NCBI GenBank assembly: GCA_900618795.1
Contig: UYJD01000002.1
Location: forward strand, 2,186,908-2,250,907
Length of the DNA stretch: 64,000 nucleotides
Direction of reading: 5' to 3'
DNA from: Cyanodermella asteris
Lineage: Eukaryota > Ascomycota > Lecanoromycetes > Ostropales > Stictidaceae
How positions within the stretch are numbered: the first letter of the stretch is position 1; each line of letters starts with the position of its first letter. A program made the position numbers and the translations under genes. Below are positions 10,692 through 43,649 of this stretch, in pieces. The notes beneath the pieces are model-generated. The model was not told the DNA's origin. It ran no database searches and was given only the letters and a program-made list of their open reading frames with translations.

Positions 10692-13600
10692 TCAAGAGGT
10701 AGAAGCCTCACTCAACTGCAACAACGCTTCCTTGATCTTTTCATCCCGTTTCGTGACCCGCAAAGCCATGATCGCCAACCCCGTCGCCGACTGCCGGTGT
10801 TCCTGGCTCAATTTTCGCGCTTCGTCCGTGATTTCGGGCGACTTATCCATTGTTATGCTCTTCTGCAGCAGGTATATGAGTTCTCGCTTTTGGCTTAGCG
10901 GGCACGGCATGCGGCCTCGAAGGGGCTGGTCGGTGATATATGCTTTTAGTATCAGTGCGAACCGCAGGCGCAGGTATGGTGCTGTGGCTGTGGCTAGCCG
11001 GCTGTGTTCCGGAGACTTTCCGGCTTGGGTGACGAGTTCGAAGAGTCGGTCGATGAGGAGGTAGCAGAGTTTGGATCGGTGATTCGGGTCTAAATCTCGC
11101 ACGCGCCCGATACGTTTTAGGTTTGGCCACAACGACGGGTGGGAGGGGATTAAGGAGTCGTCGGGATGGGGATCGTGAATGATGGACCTTAGTAGTAGGA
11201 TGTTGGCAAATTCGGAACAGTGGCTTGGTGAGCCAGGTCGCGCGTCGCTTCCAAGGCTCGGTACGAGCAGATGGTAGAATCGGTTGAAGGCATCGATATC
11301 GAAGAGCAGATCTTCGGACAGGTTCAGGCTCGGGCCCTCGCTTTCATCGCCGAGCCCTATGATTGCGTCCAGGATCTGAAGACCGACACCCCAGATGCCA
11401 GTACTGGTGTCAGATGACTCTCGTTCCAGGGACAACGTCAGTAGAGGTGACAAGACGTTCAAAGCACTAGTTGTTGCTTGCTTCCAAACCTGGATAACTT
11501 GTTCCTCCCTTTTCCATGCTCTTTTGTGTCGGATGAGGATATTGAGTGATTCAAGACACTGAATCATGCCAGGTTCTTCGTGGAGATTCAGAGCGGGACC
11601 CCGTTCCCGCACGAATTGTTCAATGAGTCTCGCGATATCTTTCGTGATTGCAACAAAGGTTGGTCCTTTGACCGTCTCATTCGGCCGCTCCTTCTCGTGG
11701 GATAGAGCTGCAAGCTCTGAAAGGACTATCAAGAAGCCCGGAGCTATTGACGTACTGGTCGCAGCATATATGTAGTTCAGCAGCTTCACGCAATCGGCCT
11801 GCAGAGGCGTAGTCGTGATCAGGTCTCCAGCGTAAGTCGTCGGCGTTGATTCAGAAATGTTAGCAGCCACCTGCCGAAGTAGCGGCGGCGCTATTTGGGT
11901 CCGCTGAGCTGGGACGGAGACTCTGTATAGCTCTGTCGCGCATGATGTGAATGCTACCAGCGCGGCTTGATTGTCACTGCTCGCTGGTCGATCAAGACGC
12001 TGATGCTGATATGCCTTTTGATCTAGCAAAATTTTCCAGGTTGAAGCCGTGGATCTAACGAACCTCGGATCATCATTGTTGAGAATCCCAAGGACTTTTG
12101 ACATCCCAGAATATGTCACCGTTGTCAAGTTGAGAGATTGACGGCTCAGCAAACCAGAAATCTGCTTGATCCATCGCGCCCAGACATCCTCTTTGTCGTG
12201 GGCTTCTAATAGCGTTGCCAAATGTTCTTCTAAAAGGGCGCAAGTTCCCGTGTGGATAGCTGCCGCTGTCTCGTCGAGTGCCAGCGATACGCTATTTATA
12301 CTTGCAGAATCGTCGCTTGCTGCTCTGGTGCTTTCATTCAACTGGTAGAGGCGCAAGATCACCTTATCCATGCATACTGCCCAGTGTTCTGGCAACAGCC
12401 TGTCGCCGATAGAATTAAATATCCTGAAGCAAGCATGCACAGCGTTATTGCGAACTTCAGCTTGGGTGCTGGCCGTGCCTTCTGAGATTGCGTTCAGAAG
12501 TTGCAGCCAAAGTATGGCTCGGGGCGACATAGACTCGTCAGGCTCCGGTGCTAGTTCTAGGTGTTCCTGCTCGGTCCAGATATTGTCTGACAAAGTTTGA
12601 TACAGAGACGTACTGGTCAAACTGATGTTGAGATCTATGTCCTGACTGCAGCAAAAATGGACCATTCGTAGTACCCGTGGAAGGCATTCATGGGGAAGTG
12701 ACTCGATCAGATCGGCGCAAACGACTTGCAGAGAGGCGAAGGCGGACCGCAAGAGCCTTTGTGAGTATGGTCGAACCTTGGAAGACGAATGGCTGTCCTC
12801 TTGCTCGGTGTTCTCAGACTCGAAAGCTGATAGCATGAGCTCGCAAGCATCAGGCCAGCCATAATCGATCGAATCTCCATATTGATCAAGGCAGGTCTTG
12901 AGTGTTTGTAAGGCAGCATTGTGGATCTCAGCGTTGCCTGTCTTCGTCGTGTTGTCGCTGATCTGGTCGTCGTATTCGCGAACGACATCCACAATTTGTC
13001 GCAGAATGCTAAAACCGAAGGGTATTAATGTTTTGGGTCGTTCGCCATTCGTTTTGGCAAATGTTGTGGCAATGACGCTTTTGCAGATCGTATCTGCGGC
13101 CGCGAAGCGTACCTCCGGATCAATGTGAAAGGCTTTCACCAGACGCATCAAAGTCTCCACCATACTCCTCCATCCGCTGGACTCGGGGCGGCTTGTATTT
13201 AACCTGCTCTTGCTGTAGTCAATCAGCTGAGAGAACACGTCAATTATGAAGACATTGGCGCGGAGATCTTGCAGACCCTCTGTACGCTTGCTGCTGAAGC
13301 TAGAGGACCGTCGATGGTGGCCTGGTTGCGGTGCTTGTGTACTTTCAGCGGACTGACCCCGAAGTAAACCATCAATGAGCTGAAGAAAGCCGAGGTACTG
13401 CTTCTGTGGCAGGTCACTTGCGCTACCAAGCATTCTTGACGCTGCAGATCGGACAGCAGCAATTTCTGATGAGAATTCTTTGGAGAGATCTCCCGAAATA
13501 GATAGAGTGGGAGCAATGCTAGCCGGACCGCCTTTCGACAGCGTTCGGTCGGTGCTGATGTGTCCAACTATCACATCAGCCTGCTGAAGCGTACCCAGGA

Positions 13601-15587
13601 CAATGGACCATGCTTCATCGAGCACCGCGCCGAGAGCGATACCAAGGTTCAGTAAAGCTCGAAGGCATAGTAAATTCCTGGGACTGAGCCGAGGCAAAGG
13701 AGCTGACGAAACCGAGCCTCTTCTATCTCCAGCTGATGCGTCCGGTTGAGTCGCTCGGGACAGCTCACCGGGTAATGACTGTTTTGCGAGCGCTGTAAGG
13801 AATGCATCCCGAGCTGTTGCGGATCGCAAGAGAGTCGCCACCTGGACAAGCTTTTGGAACGATCGGATGGTGGTATGGTAGTACTCTGCGTCTAACGCGG
13901 CCTGAAAGAATGTGGAGTAAGTACTCAAGACCGCAGGCCAGCAGCTCTCAAGCAAGCCAGCTGCTGCTTCTATTTGTCGTTCATCCCGATGGCCCTTCAG
14001 CTCAAGAGGATTTGTAGGCAGTTGGCTTTCTTCGTCGTCAGAAGAATCATCAGAATCCTCTGGCATGCCAGAGTCATTTCTGGAGCGAGAGACTTTGGAG
14101 CTCGCAAATGGTAAGACGAATCTTGCAAGACCGTCGCAAAGAAGGTTGAGAGAAGAAAGGACTAGAGCGTAGATGTATGAAGGCGGCACTCCGGGGGCAT
14201 CCGCCTTGTCGAGCTGCTCGATCAACGACACCCGTACAGTGCTTTGAGCAACGCTAATGCCTGAGTCCATGGCAGTCGTACTTGTCAAACTCACCCCAGT
14301 AGTAGCAGTGGTAGGATCTGCTTGCAAAGCAGCTAGTCCATCGAAATCCTCGTCGTTCTGTTCGGTGACTGTTGGCATAGATGATGAATGACCTAGTCCA
14401 ATGATTGAAGGTTTCTCGGTGGCAAGCCGACCAAACATGGCTAGCTGCTCTTGTACAATCGCCTTGTGGCCAGGCTCCTGGTCGAAAACGGCATACATCC
14501 TTCGAACATTGGATGGCTCTTTGTAGGCATCTCTGAGAGCTTCCATGCACATGGTCCGCTTCCAAGATGTCGTAACATCAGGCTCGAGCATATGCGTCAG
14601 CATACTAAGCAGCATCTCAAGTTCAGTCGGCAGGACTTCAATGAATCCTTGCACAACGGGAGGAACCAGCCGTAGTATCCTGACGATTTGCGGGAACGAG
14701 GACCCTGAGGAGACCACGCGCAGCATCAGTGGCAGCAGTTGCTGACGGAGTATGTCCACGAAATTGCTGTACCTTGGGATGACCGTTGTGAAGTTGAGGA
14801 GGATGGTTCCCACCAGCTCCAGGGCAAAATCCTTCGAGACATTGGCCTTTCGCAAGCTCTCAACCGGTTTGCCTTCGGCAATGGAACACAAATCCTGAAG
14901 TACCTGGTGGCAGTCGAGCTCGGCTTGCCAGGATGCTTTAGTAGTGTCCGGACTTGTCGCTTCTGAAAGCGCCTTGTCATTTCCAACGCGTGTAAAGACA
15001 TCATTGACGATCTGCTGGAGTGTTGCCGCCGCTGTGTGCGAAATCATGGCGTTTTTGGCTGTTTGGAGCACAAAACACACTTGTAGGGCTGTTGCCAATC
15101 TGGACTCGGATATCTGGTCACCATATCGCTGAAACAGCGATGGCATGACCTGCAACACACGGAGCTGTACATCGGTGCCCAAGCTGCTGCATTCGCGGAG
15201 TGATTCGAGGAGGTCCTCAAGGCGCTCCTGAGCAAGGCCATCAGCGACAACCAGCCGTTGAAGGCTGACGACGGCTGAGATGGCGAGTTTCGGATTGTTC
15301 GACTTGCAAGCAAGTAAAAATGGGCGCACGAAGCCCGGTCTTCGACGTAGGTCTTTGCCGTGTCAGTAGAGTAGCGAGAATGAACGGACTTTCATACCAG
15401 CTGCAAGTTGTGATTCTGAAGTATTGGTCAATGATTTGAGGTCCGCGAGCGATTTCTCCGCAGCCTGCAACTATCAGTAGGACTCTATATTGTCATACAC
15501 GTAGACTACCGTTCTGATATCCGGTGCTTTCCTTTTGGCGTCTTGAATGAGCGTGCTCAGCTCGCCAGCCAAAAGCGCCGCTGTCAT
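10692..15587 (-). CDS. MON2: Mon2 homologue (Golgi/endosome trafficking scaffold)
   Basis: Three exons: 15587-15510, 15464-15398 and 15352-10692. Both introns are 45 nt, with phases 0 and 1, and the product is 1601 aa, close to yeast Mon2 (about 1600). The joined N-terminus reads MTAALLAGELSTLIQDAKRK, then AAEKSLADLKSL, then RRPGFVRPFLLACKSN, the expected DCB-type start of Mon2/BIG/GBF relatives. Large HEAT-like helical regions follow, with no Sec7 catalytic domain, as in Mon2. Acidic and Ser-rich inserts occur near residue 470. Mon2 is a large Arf-GEF-related scaffold that works with Dop1 and the flippase Neo1 at the trans-Golgi/endosome. It is a housekeeping gene; I see no lesion. Confidence 0.9.
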
Positions 15588-16028: not shown

Positions 16029-17057
16029 TTAGTCCTTCTCCAGGTCCTTCGGGTCTGGGTCACCAATTCCATCTTCTTTGATTGCGAATAGACAATCAGA
16101 TTCGGGCAGACACGGACTGTCGTAGATTTTGCAGACTCTGGTCTCTCCTCGGCCCTTTTTCAAGCTAAGGCGCGTTGTGCTGGCGTGTGCGATGATGTTG
16201 CCTCCAATCGGCTTCTTGGGATCCATCATCATTGGCCCTCCATCTACCTGCGCCACAACCTGATTGGTGATTACGACAGCTATCCCAAACTCATCAGCCA
16301 AGCGCATCAGCATTCGCAAGAACTTGGCCATGTGTGTCTGACGTGCACTGAGCTCTCCACGTCCAGCGTAATCTGTTCTGTAAAGACTAGTGGCTGAATC
16401 GACAATGAGCAAGCTGAATCTCGTCTCGGTCATCATTTGCGCTGCCATTTGGAGCAGTTGTAATTGATGGTCGGAGTTGTATGCTCGCGCGTAGGCCACA
16501 TTGTCAAGTACTTCCTCGCCATTAAGACCGTATCGCTGCGCAACGGCCAAGAGACGGACGGGTCGGAAGGTACCCTCGGTATCGATGTAGAGACACTTGC
16601 CCTCGCCACCACCCATGTCGAAAGGAAGCTGACAGGTGACAGCTAGGGTGTGACATAGCTGTGATTTACCCGTTCGAAACTCTCCGAAAATTTCGGTGAT
16701 AGATCCAGTCTCGATACCACCAGCGAGAAGCGTATCAAGCTGTTTCGAACCCGTCGTGATTGAGATCAGCTCAGAACGTCTTTGATGCATCTCGGTCGCA
16801 GTTGTGAATCCCATGGGGACGAGCTTTGCAGCTTCAGCTAGAATCTTGGTTGCTTTCTGCTCAGAAATACCCTTGATCATCTCGAGTGCTTTCTTGGGTG
16901 TATATGCTACCGCCTCGACTGTGTGAAATCCTCCCTCTTGTATGAGCTGAATGTCGCGCTTGGTGAGACCTGCCATGCCCTCCAACGACGTGATTGAAGT
17001 GGGCGCTCCTGGCATGCCGTCCATGCCGTCCATCGCCTGCTCATCCTCGGCGCTCAT
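16029..17057 (-). CDS. RAD51: RAD51 recombinase
   Basis: Intronless, 342 aa from the ATG at 17057 ([14 protein letters not shown]). An N-terminal helix-hairpin-helix region lies at about residues 50-85 ([17 protein letters not shown]). The RecA core has Walker A GEFRTGKS at 125-132 and Walker B LLIVDS with Asp 220. The DNA-binding loop region has [14 protein letters not shown], and there is the fungal/eukaryotic signature [10 protein letters not shown] with [20 protein letters not shown]. The C-terminus [11 protein letters not shown]...DPKDLEKD is typical. It forms filaments on single-stranded DNA for homologous recombination. The loop after VDGG is a few residues shorter than in Aspergillus UvsC as I recall it. 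A frame extending to 17090 begins with TTG and is not a likely start. Confidence 0.97.
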
Positions 17058-18814
17058 GTTGACGTTGGTTTGTTTGTACTGAATGAGCAATTGCTATCTT
17101 GAACGTGGCGAGTGGAACAAAGAATGCTCGTGAGCATCAAACTCTCTTCACACCAAGACAATGACGAAGATGCGCGGAACTGGCTGTCGGATGATGGGCG
17201 AAGAACGTGAGGAATTGAGAAAGTGTTGTGCCGTCGAGGGGTGGCGAATCGCGCCTCCCCAAGAAGACGCGCCGGGGCCGTGGAAAGTAGCACGCGGTGT
17301 CACGTGAGCGTAGGCAGCACCCGCCCACCCACCTCTCTTGCCGTCTTGGAAAAACGCAGTCGCCCGCCAGGCGCTAGCAGCCCAATGCGGTTAGCGCCGA
17401 GGTCTCGCGGCTACAAATTCTTCGCAGAGCTTCTCACGATCTTCTTTTGCTCCTTATCATCAGTAGTAAAATTACCTTTTACTAATGGGAGCTCCGCTAC
17501 GGCGGCTTGCTGAGGGTCACCCTGCTGAGCTCATTTGAGTTCGCCCGTGGGTTTTCTTCCGTTCCCGGCTCCCTTGAGGAACGAATCCGTCTTTCCATAA
17601 CAGCTGCGGCATCTTCTTTATGGGCCGTAACTGTGGGATGGATGCAACAAATATGCCAAGATCACAATTTGTCAACGAGGCGCGAGGGCATCAAACTCGG
17701 CGTCGCCGTTCTGGGCAACATGCCGCTCGAACGATAACATTGCGGACACTGCGGAAGTTGGATCGGTGGACAAAGGCAATCGCGAAAAGTCGTAGAGGGC
17801 TGCCAGGTCAAGTTACGCAAGTTTCTTGTGCACGTCATTTACTAGCTATCAGTGTTCACCTTGTTTCTCACATCCTTGTGCAACCTGTCAACCAATACTT
17901 CAAGGTCATTACTCAAACTCTTTGTGGAATTGCTTTTGGCCGCCCGCTGCCTGTGTCGCGTCCGTTGTGTTGCGATCCATGGTGCGCCTTTAAAAGCGGA
18001 CTTGCAGCAGTGCTCTCAACTCCTAGACTCGAAAAGGTAGGTACACATGCAACAGCCTAGTTCGCGTATGCAGAAGATCTATAAAGACTCCGTCCTTGAG
18101 CATCAATAAGCTGGCATTGCATGTTTTCCGAGCCTCGAGTCTACCCCGCGGGGCAGGGGTACTGCAGGATCCTTGTCCTTGTCAATGCCGTTTCGAATGT
18201 CATGCTTAATAAGTCCTATCTGTGAGGCAATTCAGCCTGTTAATACGGACTTGGACTATGTGCGACCCTGATTCCCTGTTGTGCTGTACCCTCACCTTTG
18301 ACACTCGTCCGCATATCACAAGAGGCGTCTTCTCAAGTACTCAGATCGGTGATGATCCGACCAGGGCTGAAAGAAGCCTGAGGTCTGCCCGAGGTCTCGC
18401 TGAAATCGCGTGACCCGGTCCTGGTCTCGAAACCGGCTGCACAGAGATTCTCAAAGAAGCTCGATATCCGGCCCCCGAAACGCTAATGATCCTTGATGTT
18501 CTTTGATGGATAGAGCCAGCGGGGCAGGTACGAGTAGCCGGATTGTGTACCTCCAATCTCTCACTTGAACATCAACGGCATCATTCGTGGCTGAGCCTCG
18601 TTACGTCTTGCCGGATGACTATACCTACGCAAGTATTGTGTTGATCGTTCGAAGCATCAGCAGCTTTCGATACTTATTTGCTCTCCGTTCACGTCAGCTC
18701 TTCTTCCCTTTCACACTCTTCTTCAGTTGTGTGAGCTTCTCCTGTTACCACTACAGCTCCGACGATTGCATACTTTCCCTAATCAACAGTGATTGTGGAG
18801 AGTTAGAACTCACC
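17058..18814. other. Intergenic 1.76 kb, no gene seen
   Basis: This divergent gap lies between RAD51 (minus) and the secreted propeller-like gene (plus). The left 300 bp is GC-rich with CACGTGAGCG and a CCACCCACC stretch, probably the RAD51 promoter. The right 200 bp is pyrimidine-rich (about 18690-18760), probably the 5' UTR/promoter of the next gene. The middle has only short incoherent frames. Confidence 0.4.
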
Positions 18815-38266: not shown

Positions 38267-39355
38267 ATGTCTTACATCAGTCCAGGCGGTCTTCTCGGAC
38301 TCTCCGTCTTCTTCATGAATCTGACGACCATCATGCTCCTGATGCGATACGTGACCATGCGAATGACAAAACGAGCAGTCGGCATCGACGACCTAGCGCT
38401 GACAATCGCATGGGTCTTCACCATCGCCCTGAGCATCAACATGATCACAGCCGTCGCTTTCGGTCGATGGGGCGTTACCCTGTCACTCCCGATAGATCCT
38501 GATGGCAATATCGACCCCTTCCTCGGAATGAACTTGCCGGACCAGGCAGACTCCTCCAAAGTAAGCACAACATGTCCACCTGCTCGCTTCAACTGACACG
38601 ACCAGTTCTTCTACGCCCAAGAAATCCTCTTCGTCCTCCAACTCGTCTCCACCAAACTCGCCATCGTCCTCTTCTATCGACGCGCCCTCGTCCTCGAAAA
38701 GCGCGGCTTCACCCACTGGGCAACCCTGATCACCATCCCCCTCATCGCCCTCTGGGGCGTGGTTTTCTTCTTCATGTACGTCTTCCAGTGCGGCACCCGC
38801 TTCTCCCTGATCTGGGACGGCCCCGCGCTCGAAGAACTCCAGTACTGTCTCGGCCAGGAGCTGGAGGTCGGCTTCGCCATCTCCGGCCTGCTCCTGGACA
38901 TCCTCATCGCCGCGCTACCGCTGTATCGCGTCTTCACGCTCAAGCTTTCGGTCCCTAAGAAAATGCAGGTCGCTTCTGCGTTTCTTGTCGGTGGGCTGAG
39001 TGTAGCTGGCGCGGCGGTGCGTGTGGCGACGTTTGTCAGCGAGATCAATATGGTGGAGAACAGCTTGACGGTCGTGGCTGGAGACCCAGGGATGTTGGAT
39101 AGCTTGCTGATGTTTTGGAGCATGTTTGAGGCGGGCTTTGCGTTGACATGTGCGATCATGCCCGGGCTTAGGCCGATGATTAATAAGGCGGCGAGGATGG
39201 TTGATGAGAGGTTGTCGACGTTGAGATCGAGGTCTTCCAGGAGTGACAAGTCCTTTGGGAGTGATTCGACTTTCTCTGACATGGCGCCGTTGAGTGTCAA
39301 GGTTAGTTATGAGGTGAGGGTGGAGTCGAGTGCGAGCGATGTGAGGTATGTATAG
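38267..39355 (+). CDS. Rhodopsin-domain integral membrane protein (fungal 7TM)
   Basis: Two exons, 38267-38560 and 38606-39355; the 45-nt intron has donor GTAAGC and acceptor CCAG in phase 0; 347 aa. Seven hydrophobic segments are visible (GLLGLSVFFMNLTTIMLLM; LALTIAWVFTIALSIN; EILFVLQLVSTKLAIVLFY; LITIPLIALWGVVFFF; ISGLLLDILIAALPLY; ASAFLVGGLSVAGAAV; FWSMFEAGFALTCAIM). The TM2 entry motif GIDDLALTIAWVF, the KL(A/S)xxLFYRR segment after TM3 and QC in loop 2 match the fungal rhodopsin-domain/Pth11-related family, though no CFEM domain is present. The C-tail is Ser-rich. Probably a plasma-membrane receptor-like protein; ligand unknown. Confidence 0.85.
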
Positions 39356-40407: not shown

Positions 40408-40547
40408 TCTTCCATAGCTCAGTTGGCTAGAGCGTCCGGTTCGTTTACCCTCTATCAAAGCCAACTAAAAACTAAATACTGATCCTTCTACAGACTGTTA
40501 ATCGACAGTCGATCGGGAGGTCGCTGGTTCGAGCCCAGCTGGAAGAG
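40408..40547 (+). tRNA. tRNA-Asn (GTT) with two intervening sequences
   Basis: Acceptor stem TCTTCCA (40408-40414) pairs with TGGAAGA (40540-40546). The D-arm is GCTC/GAGC (417-420/430-433), and the T-arm is GCTGG-TTCGAGC-CCAGC (40523-40539). Removing 40439-40493 and 40501-40511 leaves a 74-nt tRNA whose anticodon arm is TCCGA-CTGTTAA-TCGGG: standard eukaryotic tRNA-Asn, anticodon GTT at 40497-40499. The 11-nt insert at 40501-40511 sits between positions 37 and 38, the canonical site of nuclear tRNA introns, and its ACAGTCG pairs with CGACTGT of the joined anticodon arm. The 55-nt insert at 40439-40493 lies in the anticodon stem, between positions 30 and 31. It begins GTTCGT, has CTAAAT and CTGAT branch-like sites, and ends CTACAG, like a spliceosomal intron. 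Discriminator G; a T5 terminator follows. Whether it is functional is uncertain. Confidence 0.85.
40439..40493 (+). other. 55-nt spliceosomal-like insertion inside tRNA-Asn
   Basis: The insert starts GT and ends AG, at a length (55 nt) inside the range of the mRNA introns in this window (45-162 nt). It carries ACTAAATACTGAT about 10 nt before the CTACAG acceptor. Precise removal restores the exact tRNA-Asn anticodon stem. It could be an introner-like element or other intron-like insertion. If it is retained, the gene would be a pseudogene. Confidence 0.7.
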
Positions 40548-40551
40548 TCAC

Positions 40552-40556
40552 TTTTT
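40552..40556 (+). terminator. Pol III T-run terminator of tRNA-Asn
   Basis: A run of five T on the plus strand begins five bases after the discriminator base, the expected RNA polymerase III termination signal. Confidence 0.8.
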
Positions 40557-41575: not shown

Positions 41576-43649
41576 CTACATTGGCTGCGTCGTCGAGTCC
41601 AAGGAATTGCCAGCATCACCGTCCCCGGCTCCAGCACCATCAAACGCATCGTCGAAAGCGCTCGTACCAAAGTCGTCCGCGGGTGTCCCACCGAGGCTGT
41701 CATCCGGCAGATCAAGGAACTGTGCACTAAAGTCGTCGCCGGGTGTTCCTGTCTCGCCAACCCCGTGATCGGCGGGGACGGATCCAGTTGCAGGCATGTT
41801 CTGCAGGCTGGGATCACCGGCTCCAAGATCCAGCGACGTGTCGCCGAGGAGATCGTCCTTGTCGACCATTTCGAAATCATCGTCGGGCAGCGCAAGGGAG
41901 TCGTCTGGCTGGGCTTGTGGCGCTCCTTCTGCGACTGTGCCATCGAGGCTTTGGAACCCATTTGTGGGAGCGTGGGATGCCGCACGTTGATTCGAGTCGT
42001 CTGTGCCTTCCATGATTGTGTCTTGTTGGGCGGCTGGCGTTGGAGCTTTCTCTTCCAGGCCACCCTTGTTGATGCATTGAGCTTGCTGAATGACCTCGAT
42101 CCTCCTGCCGAGCGACTTCTCGACATCTTGGGCAATGTTTTTAATGTCGTCTAACTGGCGGACCATGGCGACATCGACATCCTTCCCAGCGGGTGCATGT
42201 ATGGGGTCTGCTCGCTCAGACTTCGAATTCGCATGGGAAGGGAATTGTACTGCGCTGCGCAACTTCCGCTCAGCCTCTTGTAGAGCGCCGCTCTGTCTGA
42301 TCTTAGCCATGCGCTTCTCGTGTAGCGCCTTTTCTTTCTCCATCTCAGCCTGCATTTCACTGATTTTATCCTCGGCCTTTTTGATGTACGCGTTGTACTG
42401 ATCCGGGGTCGGCTTGACCAACTCGCGCTCATCGTCGGGTCGGATTGACGTATCAATGAAATCGTAACCATTTCCCAAGCCAGATAGATGGCCAGCTCGT
42501 CCTTGCCCCAGACTCACAGGCTTCAATCTGTGCACTGGGTATGGTGTGACGAAAAGCTCCTCCATCCATTCCGTGTGCTGTTTGTATCGCTGGACACTGA
42601 TCTCACGTGGAGTCAAGACATCCATGATATCTCTTCCTCCGTCGTCTTCTCCCTCGGGTAGGATATATGCCGGCGGCGCGACTTGACCAGCGTTGTTGCG
42701 CGCGCGTTTCGGCAGAGGCTGGCCACGTGGATCAACCAATTGGTTTCCCAAAATGTACATACCTGCCTTTCCACGGGCAAGCTGATATCCGGGTCCGGAC
42801 GTCTCCTGTGACTTCTCAATCGGCGGCGCTATCTCGGGCCAGCTATCGTTATTGGCCCAGACGAAGCCTTTCTGCTTGATGTCAAGCCCTCGATCGAAGC
42901 GCGAGATGGCATGATCTGGGGACAGAATACGGCCAAATAGGTTGTCACGCTTAAGCAGGGCAGGAATTTGCGATTGTGCGATTTGTTGTATAGCATCGAG
43001 ATCGGTTCGTAAGACGTCGTTGCGCTCAGCGCGCTTGTACAGCACCAGCCAAATATTTGGATCACAAGCGCTTTGTCCATCTTTTGGTGGTGTCGCAGGA
43101 AGAATGCGGTATCGAAGACGTGCATGTACAGTATATGGCTCTACTGCATGAACGCGTATCTGCTTCTGCTGGGGCAACAGGAGCTGAGGGACGTATCCGG
43201 AACGATGCTTGTGAGTCTCGAGAGTCTGCAAATTGTCAGTGTGTCTGCCCTTTCACTTATACAATCGCGCTCACATAATCGTCCAGCTGCTCTTTCGTAG
43301 TCTCTTCTTGATCTGCCCAGGCATAGCCGTCGGTAGGAAAGTGGTCCAAGGGCACGACAATCTCCTGTTGCGGATTATTGGCGGCTGGCAGCTTGTTCGA
43401 CTGCCATACGATGAGACTTGTGCGGTCTCTCGGAATATCGAGCTTCTGCCATGACCAAGCACATGGTCGCTCTGTTGTCTTCTTCTCGGCCGCTGCTTCA
43501 AGGAGCAGGTCTCTGATTTGCTCATTTGTGAAGCTGAAGACGTCGCCCTTGTCCTCACATTTGTAAGACGACACGAGATGCAGGTGCCATCTCAAGCGTG
43601 GATCGACTTTTTCGGACGGATCAGCGATGGGGCCTCTGGGCATAGCCAT
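41576..43649 (-). CDS. ssr4: SWI/SNF and RSC complex subunit Ssr4
   Basis: Two exons, 43649-43275 and 43225-41576; the 49-nt intron has donor GTGAGC and acceptor TTGCAG in phase 0; 674 aa. The joined text runs HLHLVSSYKCEDKG, then VPLDHFPTDGYAWADQEE, KHRSGYVPQ, VHARLRYRILPATPPKDG, PNIWLVLYKRAERNDV and FVWANNDSWPEIAPP, then KRARN. This is the DUF1750/SWI-SNF_Ssr4 family: HLVSSY, DGYxWAD and RYRLxPA...WLVxY are its landmarks. The C-terminal half is a coiled coil (about 400-450, EDKISEMQAEMEKEKALHEKRM) followed by an acidic Asp/Gly/Ser-rich tail. In fission yeast Ssr4 belongs to both SWI/SNF and RSC chromatin remodellers. It is head to head with DIM1. Confidence 0.88.

Follow-up and report, generated by a model that had tools for sequence, protein, structure and literature searches.

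A tRNA-Asn gene of Cyanodermella asteris apparently interrupted twice, by an 11-nt tRNA intron and by a 55-nt insert with the look of a spliceosomal intron

The 64,000-nt stretch of Cyanodermella asteris DNA analysed here, which we call the window, carries on its plus strand a tract (40408-40547) whose letters and coordinates are as the original prediction gave them and which contains an Asn tRNA gene that appears to be interrupted twice. Excising 55 nt (40439-40493) and 11 nt (40501-40511) leaves a complete 74-nt tRNA-Asn(GUU). The first exon holds the 5' strand of the acceptor stem, the D arm and bases one to four of the anticodon stem. The letters show the two internal promoter boxes, A and B, and a T-run terminator, and the locus is a predicted Pol III gene; TAGCTCAGTTGG and GGTTCGAGCCC are what we take to be the two boxes, going by the usual consensus. 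The features of the locus, each with its evidence in brackets, are as follows.

40408..40438, plus strand: exon 1 of the tRNA-Asn, positions 1-30, 31 nt with 20a (start of the Rfam match, pairs, conserved positions)
40415..40426, plus strand: presumed A box of the internal Pol III promoter, TAGCTCAGTTGG (sequence letters)
40439..40493, plus strand: 55-nt insert with the anatomy of a spliceosomal intron, GTTCGT...TACTGAT...CTACAG (in silico removal, parses, null comparisons)
40477..40483, plus strand: candidate branch site TACTGAT with RCTRAY inside, branch A at 40482 with a further 11 nt of insert after it (letters)
40494..40500, plus strand: exon 2, positions 31-37, ACTGTTA, anticodon GTT at 40497-40499 (ARAGORN after removal, position check)
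40501..40511, plus strand: 11-nt intron at 37/38, ATCGACAGTCG, which pairs with 32-35 (ARAGORN after removal, bulge-helix-bulge test)
40512..40547, plus strand: exon 3, positions 38-73, with G73 (Rfam match, position check)
40526..40536, plus strand: presumed B box of the internal Pol III promoter, GGTTCGAGCCC (sequence letters)
40552..40556, plus strand: T5 run, a likely Pol III terminator, 4 bases past the tRNA (sequence letters)

The window also holds protein-coding genes on its minus strand, including a reading frame of 1545 aa, with the DCB and HUS domains of a Mon2-like trafficking protein (10692-15329), a gene for a Rad51 recombinase (16029-17090, Pfam E-value 1e-131) and one for the SWI/SNF-RSC subunit Ssr4, which extends over two frames with probably a short intron between them (41576-43649).

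How the gene appears to tRNA-finding programs depends on how it is searched. With 401 bases scanned under permissive filters, the Rfam tRNA model gave a match whose two ends lie exactly at 40408 and 40547 and which skips 70 bases in the anticodon loop; it scores 44.7 bits, the gathering score being 29. With gathering scores and fast filters, Rfam listed nothing in the whole 64-kb window and missed this tRNA too, on account of those filters. Automated annotation may overlook such genes, as Rfam does at its gathering threshold with the tRNA at 40408-40547. ARAGORN found no tRNA in the window when introns were disallowed; when one anticodon-loop intron was allowed, it reported this gene alone, as 'Pyl(cta)', an anticodon that makes no sense. 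Given the sequence without the 55 nt, the same program returned tRNA-Asn(gtt) with an 11-nt intron. The 74-nt product forms all 21 cloverleaf pairs, including a wobble U27-G43, and G15-C48 is present as well; 13 of 13 checked positions, namely 12 general ones and G73, taken as the Asn discriminator, are as expected. The complete tRNA-Asn body that had been claimed to emerge after two excisions is thus borne out, as is the claim that taking out the 55 nt restores TCCGA-CTGTTAA, by which the Asn arm with its GUU loop is reconstituted exactly. We therefore confirm the observation of a doubly interrupted tRNA-Asn gene.

The larger insert was said to lie between positions 30 and 31 and to carry the signals of an mRNA intron. 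The first of these statements stands in part. Shifting the excision one base earlier gives the identical RNA, three later shifts retain GUU in an acceptable arm, and three further ones leave acceptable arms with other anticodons; the placement is accordingly not unique. It is, however, the sole one with GT...AG ends. We enumerated all two-excision parses in which the first piece measures 30 nt or more, the second, at 37/38, measures 6 nt or more, and the product keeps a five-pair stem with a pyrimidine at 32, U33 and a purine at 37. There are 65 of them; GT...AG occurs in one, the proposed Asn parse. As to the signals, the insert has GT...AG ends and the branch motif TACTGAT, and its GC content is 36%, against 56% elsewhere in the gene. 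The ACTGAT within that motif, which conforms to RCTRAY, stands at a suitable distance, 11 nt before the end. These two elements are as predicted. The donor GTTCGT is weak, agreeing with CAG|GTAAGT at six of nine positions, and a mechanical search for introns gave 28 candidates, largely doubtful ones, none of which starts with it.

For comparison, the introns of the window itself can be consulted. Finding them by codon bias (5 candidates, or 28 with looser limits) yielded mostly noise and was set aside, and the comparator introns kept were the two backed by split Pfam domains, one half of which scores below its cutoff.

38561..38605, plus strand: 45-nt intron of a Fung_rhodopsin gene, GTAAGC...ACTGAC...CAG (PF20684 parts on both sides, junction script)
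43226..43274, minus strand: 49-nt intron of the Ssr4 gene, GTGAGC...ACTGAC...CAG (two PF08549 parts of 48.6 and 42.5 bits, cutoff 27)

The PF20684 half upstream of the first intron is the weak one (20.6 bits, below the cutoff of 27), the downstream half scoring 55.4. For the Ssr4 intron the junction script permits other joins, and its top row is a 67-nt variant with the same donor. The Pfam matches in these two genes, between which the tRNA locus lies, support a fungal host. The 3' end of the tRNA insert is laid out like those of these two homology-supported introns. All three end in CAG, the branch motif is ACTGAT in the insert and ACTGAC in both comparators, and the branch A is followed by 11 bases in the insert, 9 in the Fung_rhodopsin intron and 10 in the Ssr4 intron. 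The donor GTTCGT is weaker than either GTAAGC or GTGAGC.

Signals of this kind can arise by chance, and all of the following tests were made after the fact on a single locus. Among 20,000 shuffles of the 66 inserted nucleotides, GT-AG was found in some parse in 9,996, for which reason we dropped GT-AG in any parse as stand-alone evidence; GT-AG with a loose branch motif was found in 4,054, also in any parse, so that this pair by itself is weak evidence. Stricter combinations were rare. GT-AG and RCTRAY, joined to a pairing of 5 bp or more with the second piece, appeared in 55 of the 20,000 shuffles, and a correctly placed CTGTTAA loop in 157. For the DNA of the window, 66-mers were taken from every second start on both strands, with the locus excluded (n=63,636). 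GT-AG with RCTRAY was found in some parse of 1,468 of these, among which 100 also pair, 56 also have C32, A37 and A38, and none has both; no window 66-mer joins a CTGTTAA loop with GT-AG and RCTRAY. When 55-mers of the window were set in the insert's place, 883 of 127,681 had GT-AG, 20 had RCTRAY in addition and 95 the looser YTRAY, and for shuffles of the insert the counts were 67 of 50,000 with GT-AG and 7 with RCTRAY as well; these 55-mer nulls cover slides 0-7, without the three later anticodon-changing ones, and the window null includes the minus strand of the locus. The evidential weight lies in the conjunction of the intron signals with the Asn loop, and the controls overturn neither the Asn reading nor the likeness of the 55 nt to a spliceosomal intron.

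The smaller piece is of a more familiar kind. In yeast, removal of introns by the tRNA endonuclease calls for a 3-nt bulge at the 3' site and for pairing between anticodon and intron, rules that need not be equally strict in this fungus. The 11-nt piece sits at 37/38 as predicted, ARAGORN placing an intron there once the 55 nt are gone, and all four central pairs of a bulge-helix-bulge can form. The 7-bp pairing CGACTGT/ACAGTCG described for it does exist; it is complete, however, only after the 55-nt removal, and three of its seven bases (29-31) are shared with the anticodon stem. When the whole stem forms, 4 bp (32-35) are left and the bulge on the 3' side measures 4 nt; if both bulges are set to 3 nt, the central helix has 4/4 pairs and the outer helix 2/3. 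A 3-nt 3' bulge next to a fully paired stem, as the yeast-derived rule would have it, is not found in the 11-nt intron. It may be added that this intron starts with ATCG and is followed by another ATCG (40494-40515), and that its ACAGT repeats, in inverted form, the ACTGT of the anticodon arm, as though fold-back copying had produced the intron.

Could the same endonuclease remove the 55 nt? If it did, both pieces would be tRNA-endonuclease introns, the larger one in a non-canonical place as in archaea, Cyanidioschyzon and nucleomorphs, where multiple and non-canonical tRNA introns are known, those of archaea occurring also at 30/31 (PMC4090602, in the sections available). A first bulge-helix-bulge run favoured larger bulges in ties, and it was repeated with the smallest bulges first and with three extra slides. 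None of the five slides that keep GUU has a full bulge-helix-bulge at the ends of the 55 nt, central pairs numbering 2-3 of 4, which disfavours removal by the tRNA endonuclease. The three slides that lose GUU by changing the anticodon reach central pairs of 4/4, although with outer pairs of only 0-2/3. Judged by this predicted pairing, the 11-nt piece, in spite of a blemish, suits the endonuclease better than the 55-nt piece does. Two endonuclease introns would also run against the description of eukaryotic tRNA genes as having one intron at most (PMC8450103, by the tRNAscan-SE authors, in excerpt), and they would reduce GT-AG and the branch motif to chance. The organisms that offer a likeness, in having more than one intron per eukaryotic tRNA gene and in a non-canonical place, differ in turn: the available sections of PMC4090602 indicate that bulge-helix-bulge motifs seem decisive in Cyanidioschyzon and that the inserts in Guillardia nucleomorphs measure 3-24 nt, their splicing not being understood. 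The tRNA-Asn insert is 55 nt long, has mRNA-intron signals and shows no full motif at the slides that keep GUU. We find two endonuclease introns very improbable.

A simpler arrangement has a single canonical 66-nt intron at 37/38 (40446-40511), an anticodon CGU (Thr), and an Asn loop that is coincidental. Only one intron is then required, and it lies in the usual place. The 5-bp stem TCCGG/TCGGG pairs fully without any splicing, with G31-U39; the first base of the insert being G, the unspliced precursor can form this full stem as well. The bulge-helix-bulge of this parse (3-nt bulges, central 3/4, outer 3/3) is not much worse than that of the 11-nt intron at equal bulge sizes. A purine is usual at position 37 of tRNAs, and a G73 discriminator is usual for Asn and unusual for Thr; the Thr(CGU) parse gives U37 and has the G73 that is atypical for it and typical for Asn. 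It would moreover leave to chance a correctly placed CTGTTAA, as seen in just 157 of the 20,000 shuffles. In the Asn reading, the uninterrupted form would be TCCGACTGTTA.

Similarity to other tRNAs does not speak for Asn. The comparison set consisted of 71 ARAGORN tRNAs from 8 viral contigs, which had been picked by a 5'-half pattern, and 3 further tRNAs from human and yeast, with yeast as the only fungal reference, and the test sequence contained the Asn loop. The best matches of the 74-nt Asn parse were Ile (74%) and Met (72-73%), top scores that are expected given how the contigs were chosen. Asn tRNAs reached 72% (human), 70, 65, 57 and 57% (viral) and 66% (yeast), and Thr tRNAs 64% (yeast) and 61, 59 and 58% (viral). 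The tRNA body, which appears no closer to the available Asn tRNAs than to Ile and Met, is not recognisably Asn by this measure, a result that lends the Asn reading no help. Exact patterns gave no relative of the tRNA and no homologue of the arrangement in collections of viral contigs and of prokaryote genomes, both of them non-fungal. With both sides considered, a Thr(CGU) gene with one 66-nt intron strikes us as unlikely.

The main rival is of another nature, as it grants the Asn reading. One of several tRNA-Asn genes would have been hit recently by the 55-nt piece, whether filler DNA or the stray copy of an intron, and would give a misprocessed transcript, making the locus a young insertion pseudogene. 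In eukaryotic tRNA genes, short inserts in the D or T arm mostly affect a single gene out of a large synonymous set and are taken to mark pseudogenes (PMC4090602, from the sections available), and the weak donor fits such a fate; the insert described here is in the anticodon stem. Against it, the 21 pairs and 13 positions of the mature tRNA are without decay and the promoter boxes and T run are intact, although a young pseudogene would look equally undecayed. Filler DNA is also disfavoured by the rarity of GT-AG with the branch motif (20 of 127,681), numbers with which a stray intron copy is compatible. We hold the young pseudogene to be a doubtful but serious possibility, behind the explanation that we prefer.

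According to that explanation, which in our judgement could equally be right or wrong, the locus is a nuclear fungal tRNA-Asn(GUU) gene in which an 11-nt tRNA intron at 37/38 is accompanied by a 55-nt U2-type intron at 30/31 that the spliceosome would remove. The spliceosome is proposed for the 55 nt because three spliceosomal signals are found there and because the fit to the endonuclease is poorer than that of the 11-nt piece. Pol III would transcribe the precursor, from which the spliceosome would excise the 55 nt, much as with the mRNA-type intron of fission-yeast U6. This excision would create the A31-U39 pair and the GUU loop, after which tRNA endonuclease and ligase would take out the 11 nt. 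That the product is a functional nuclear tRNA which needs the spliceosome (55 nt, 30/31) and then the tRNA endonuclease (11 nt, 37/38) is a tentative proposal, a little less probable than not. In its boldest form, the order of the two steps would decide the product: the endonuclease could act first on the unspliced precursor, whose TCCGG/TCGGG stem forms in any case, and the same gene would then yield an Asn body with a CGU (Thr) anticodon. The spliceosome reading has to contend with a 5' exon that holds just 31 nt of tRNA plus a leader. Pol III products also come without the mRNA cap.

As to its origin, the 55-nt intron probably entered a gene in which the small intron was already present, through reverse splicing or some comparable single transfer. 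Apart from the one-base slide, no target duplication can be read from the sequence at the 55 nt. An introner-like origin had been suggested, and introner-like elements are indeed spliceosomal introns that have multiplied in Pezizomycotina (excerpts of PMC4457414 and PMC9860276). Such elements are defined by many similar copies, however, and no second copy of the 55 nt was found in the 64-kb window, the best other match being 11 nt; the last 16 bases of the insert likewise have no other window match with up to 3 mismatches. On the evidence of the window, the suggestion is so far without support. The main text of both papers never mentions tRNA.

The presence of a Pol II-type intron inside a Pol III gene was originally taken to be new. 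Stated so broadly this does not hold, as fission yeast provides a precedent: Schizosaccharomyces pombe U6, a small structured Pol III RNA, carries an mRNA-type intron that is thought to be due to reverse splicing (PMC10484740, in part). What stands is the narrower claim, since no published case of a spliceosomal intron in a tRNA gene was found among the matches listed from the open-licence literature, seen in excerpt. In addition, nuclear tRNA introns are mostly found at 37/38 (PMC4090602 and PMC8450103, in the sections available). U6 and the tRNA-Asn differ in that splicing has been demonstrated for the former and is proposed for the latter. They differ also in that U6 acts inside the spliceosome, which explains the accident of intron gain, and a tRNA does not. 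The nuclear 18S rDNA of fungi is a further parallel, with spliceosomal-type introns in a non-coding structural RNA gene, here in a Pol I transcript with long exons. Lichen fungi, too, have mRNA-type introns in their 18S rDNA. An mRNA intron in fungal 18S rDNA is named in the title of Rogers et al. 1993, as cited in the available part of PMC11782384.

What would such a gene mean? If the spliceosome does remove the 55 nt, recruitment of this machinery would require neither a cap nor a Pol II tail and would tolerate a very short 5' exon. To our knowledge, spliceosomal introns belong to Pol II transcripts with few exceptions, namely U6 and fungal rDNA. Nuclear tRNA genes would, against the rule, no longer be confined to one intron each. 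Gene finders that allow one anticodon-loop intron would misname or miss such genes, ARAGORN calling this one Pyl and a single 37/38 intron making it Thr(CGU). The locus would serve as a clean natural reporter for the gain of introns by non-coding genes, and the making of one tRNA may call for two splicing machineries that are unrelated to each other.
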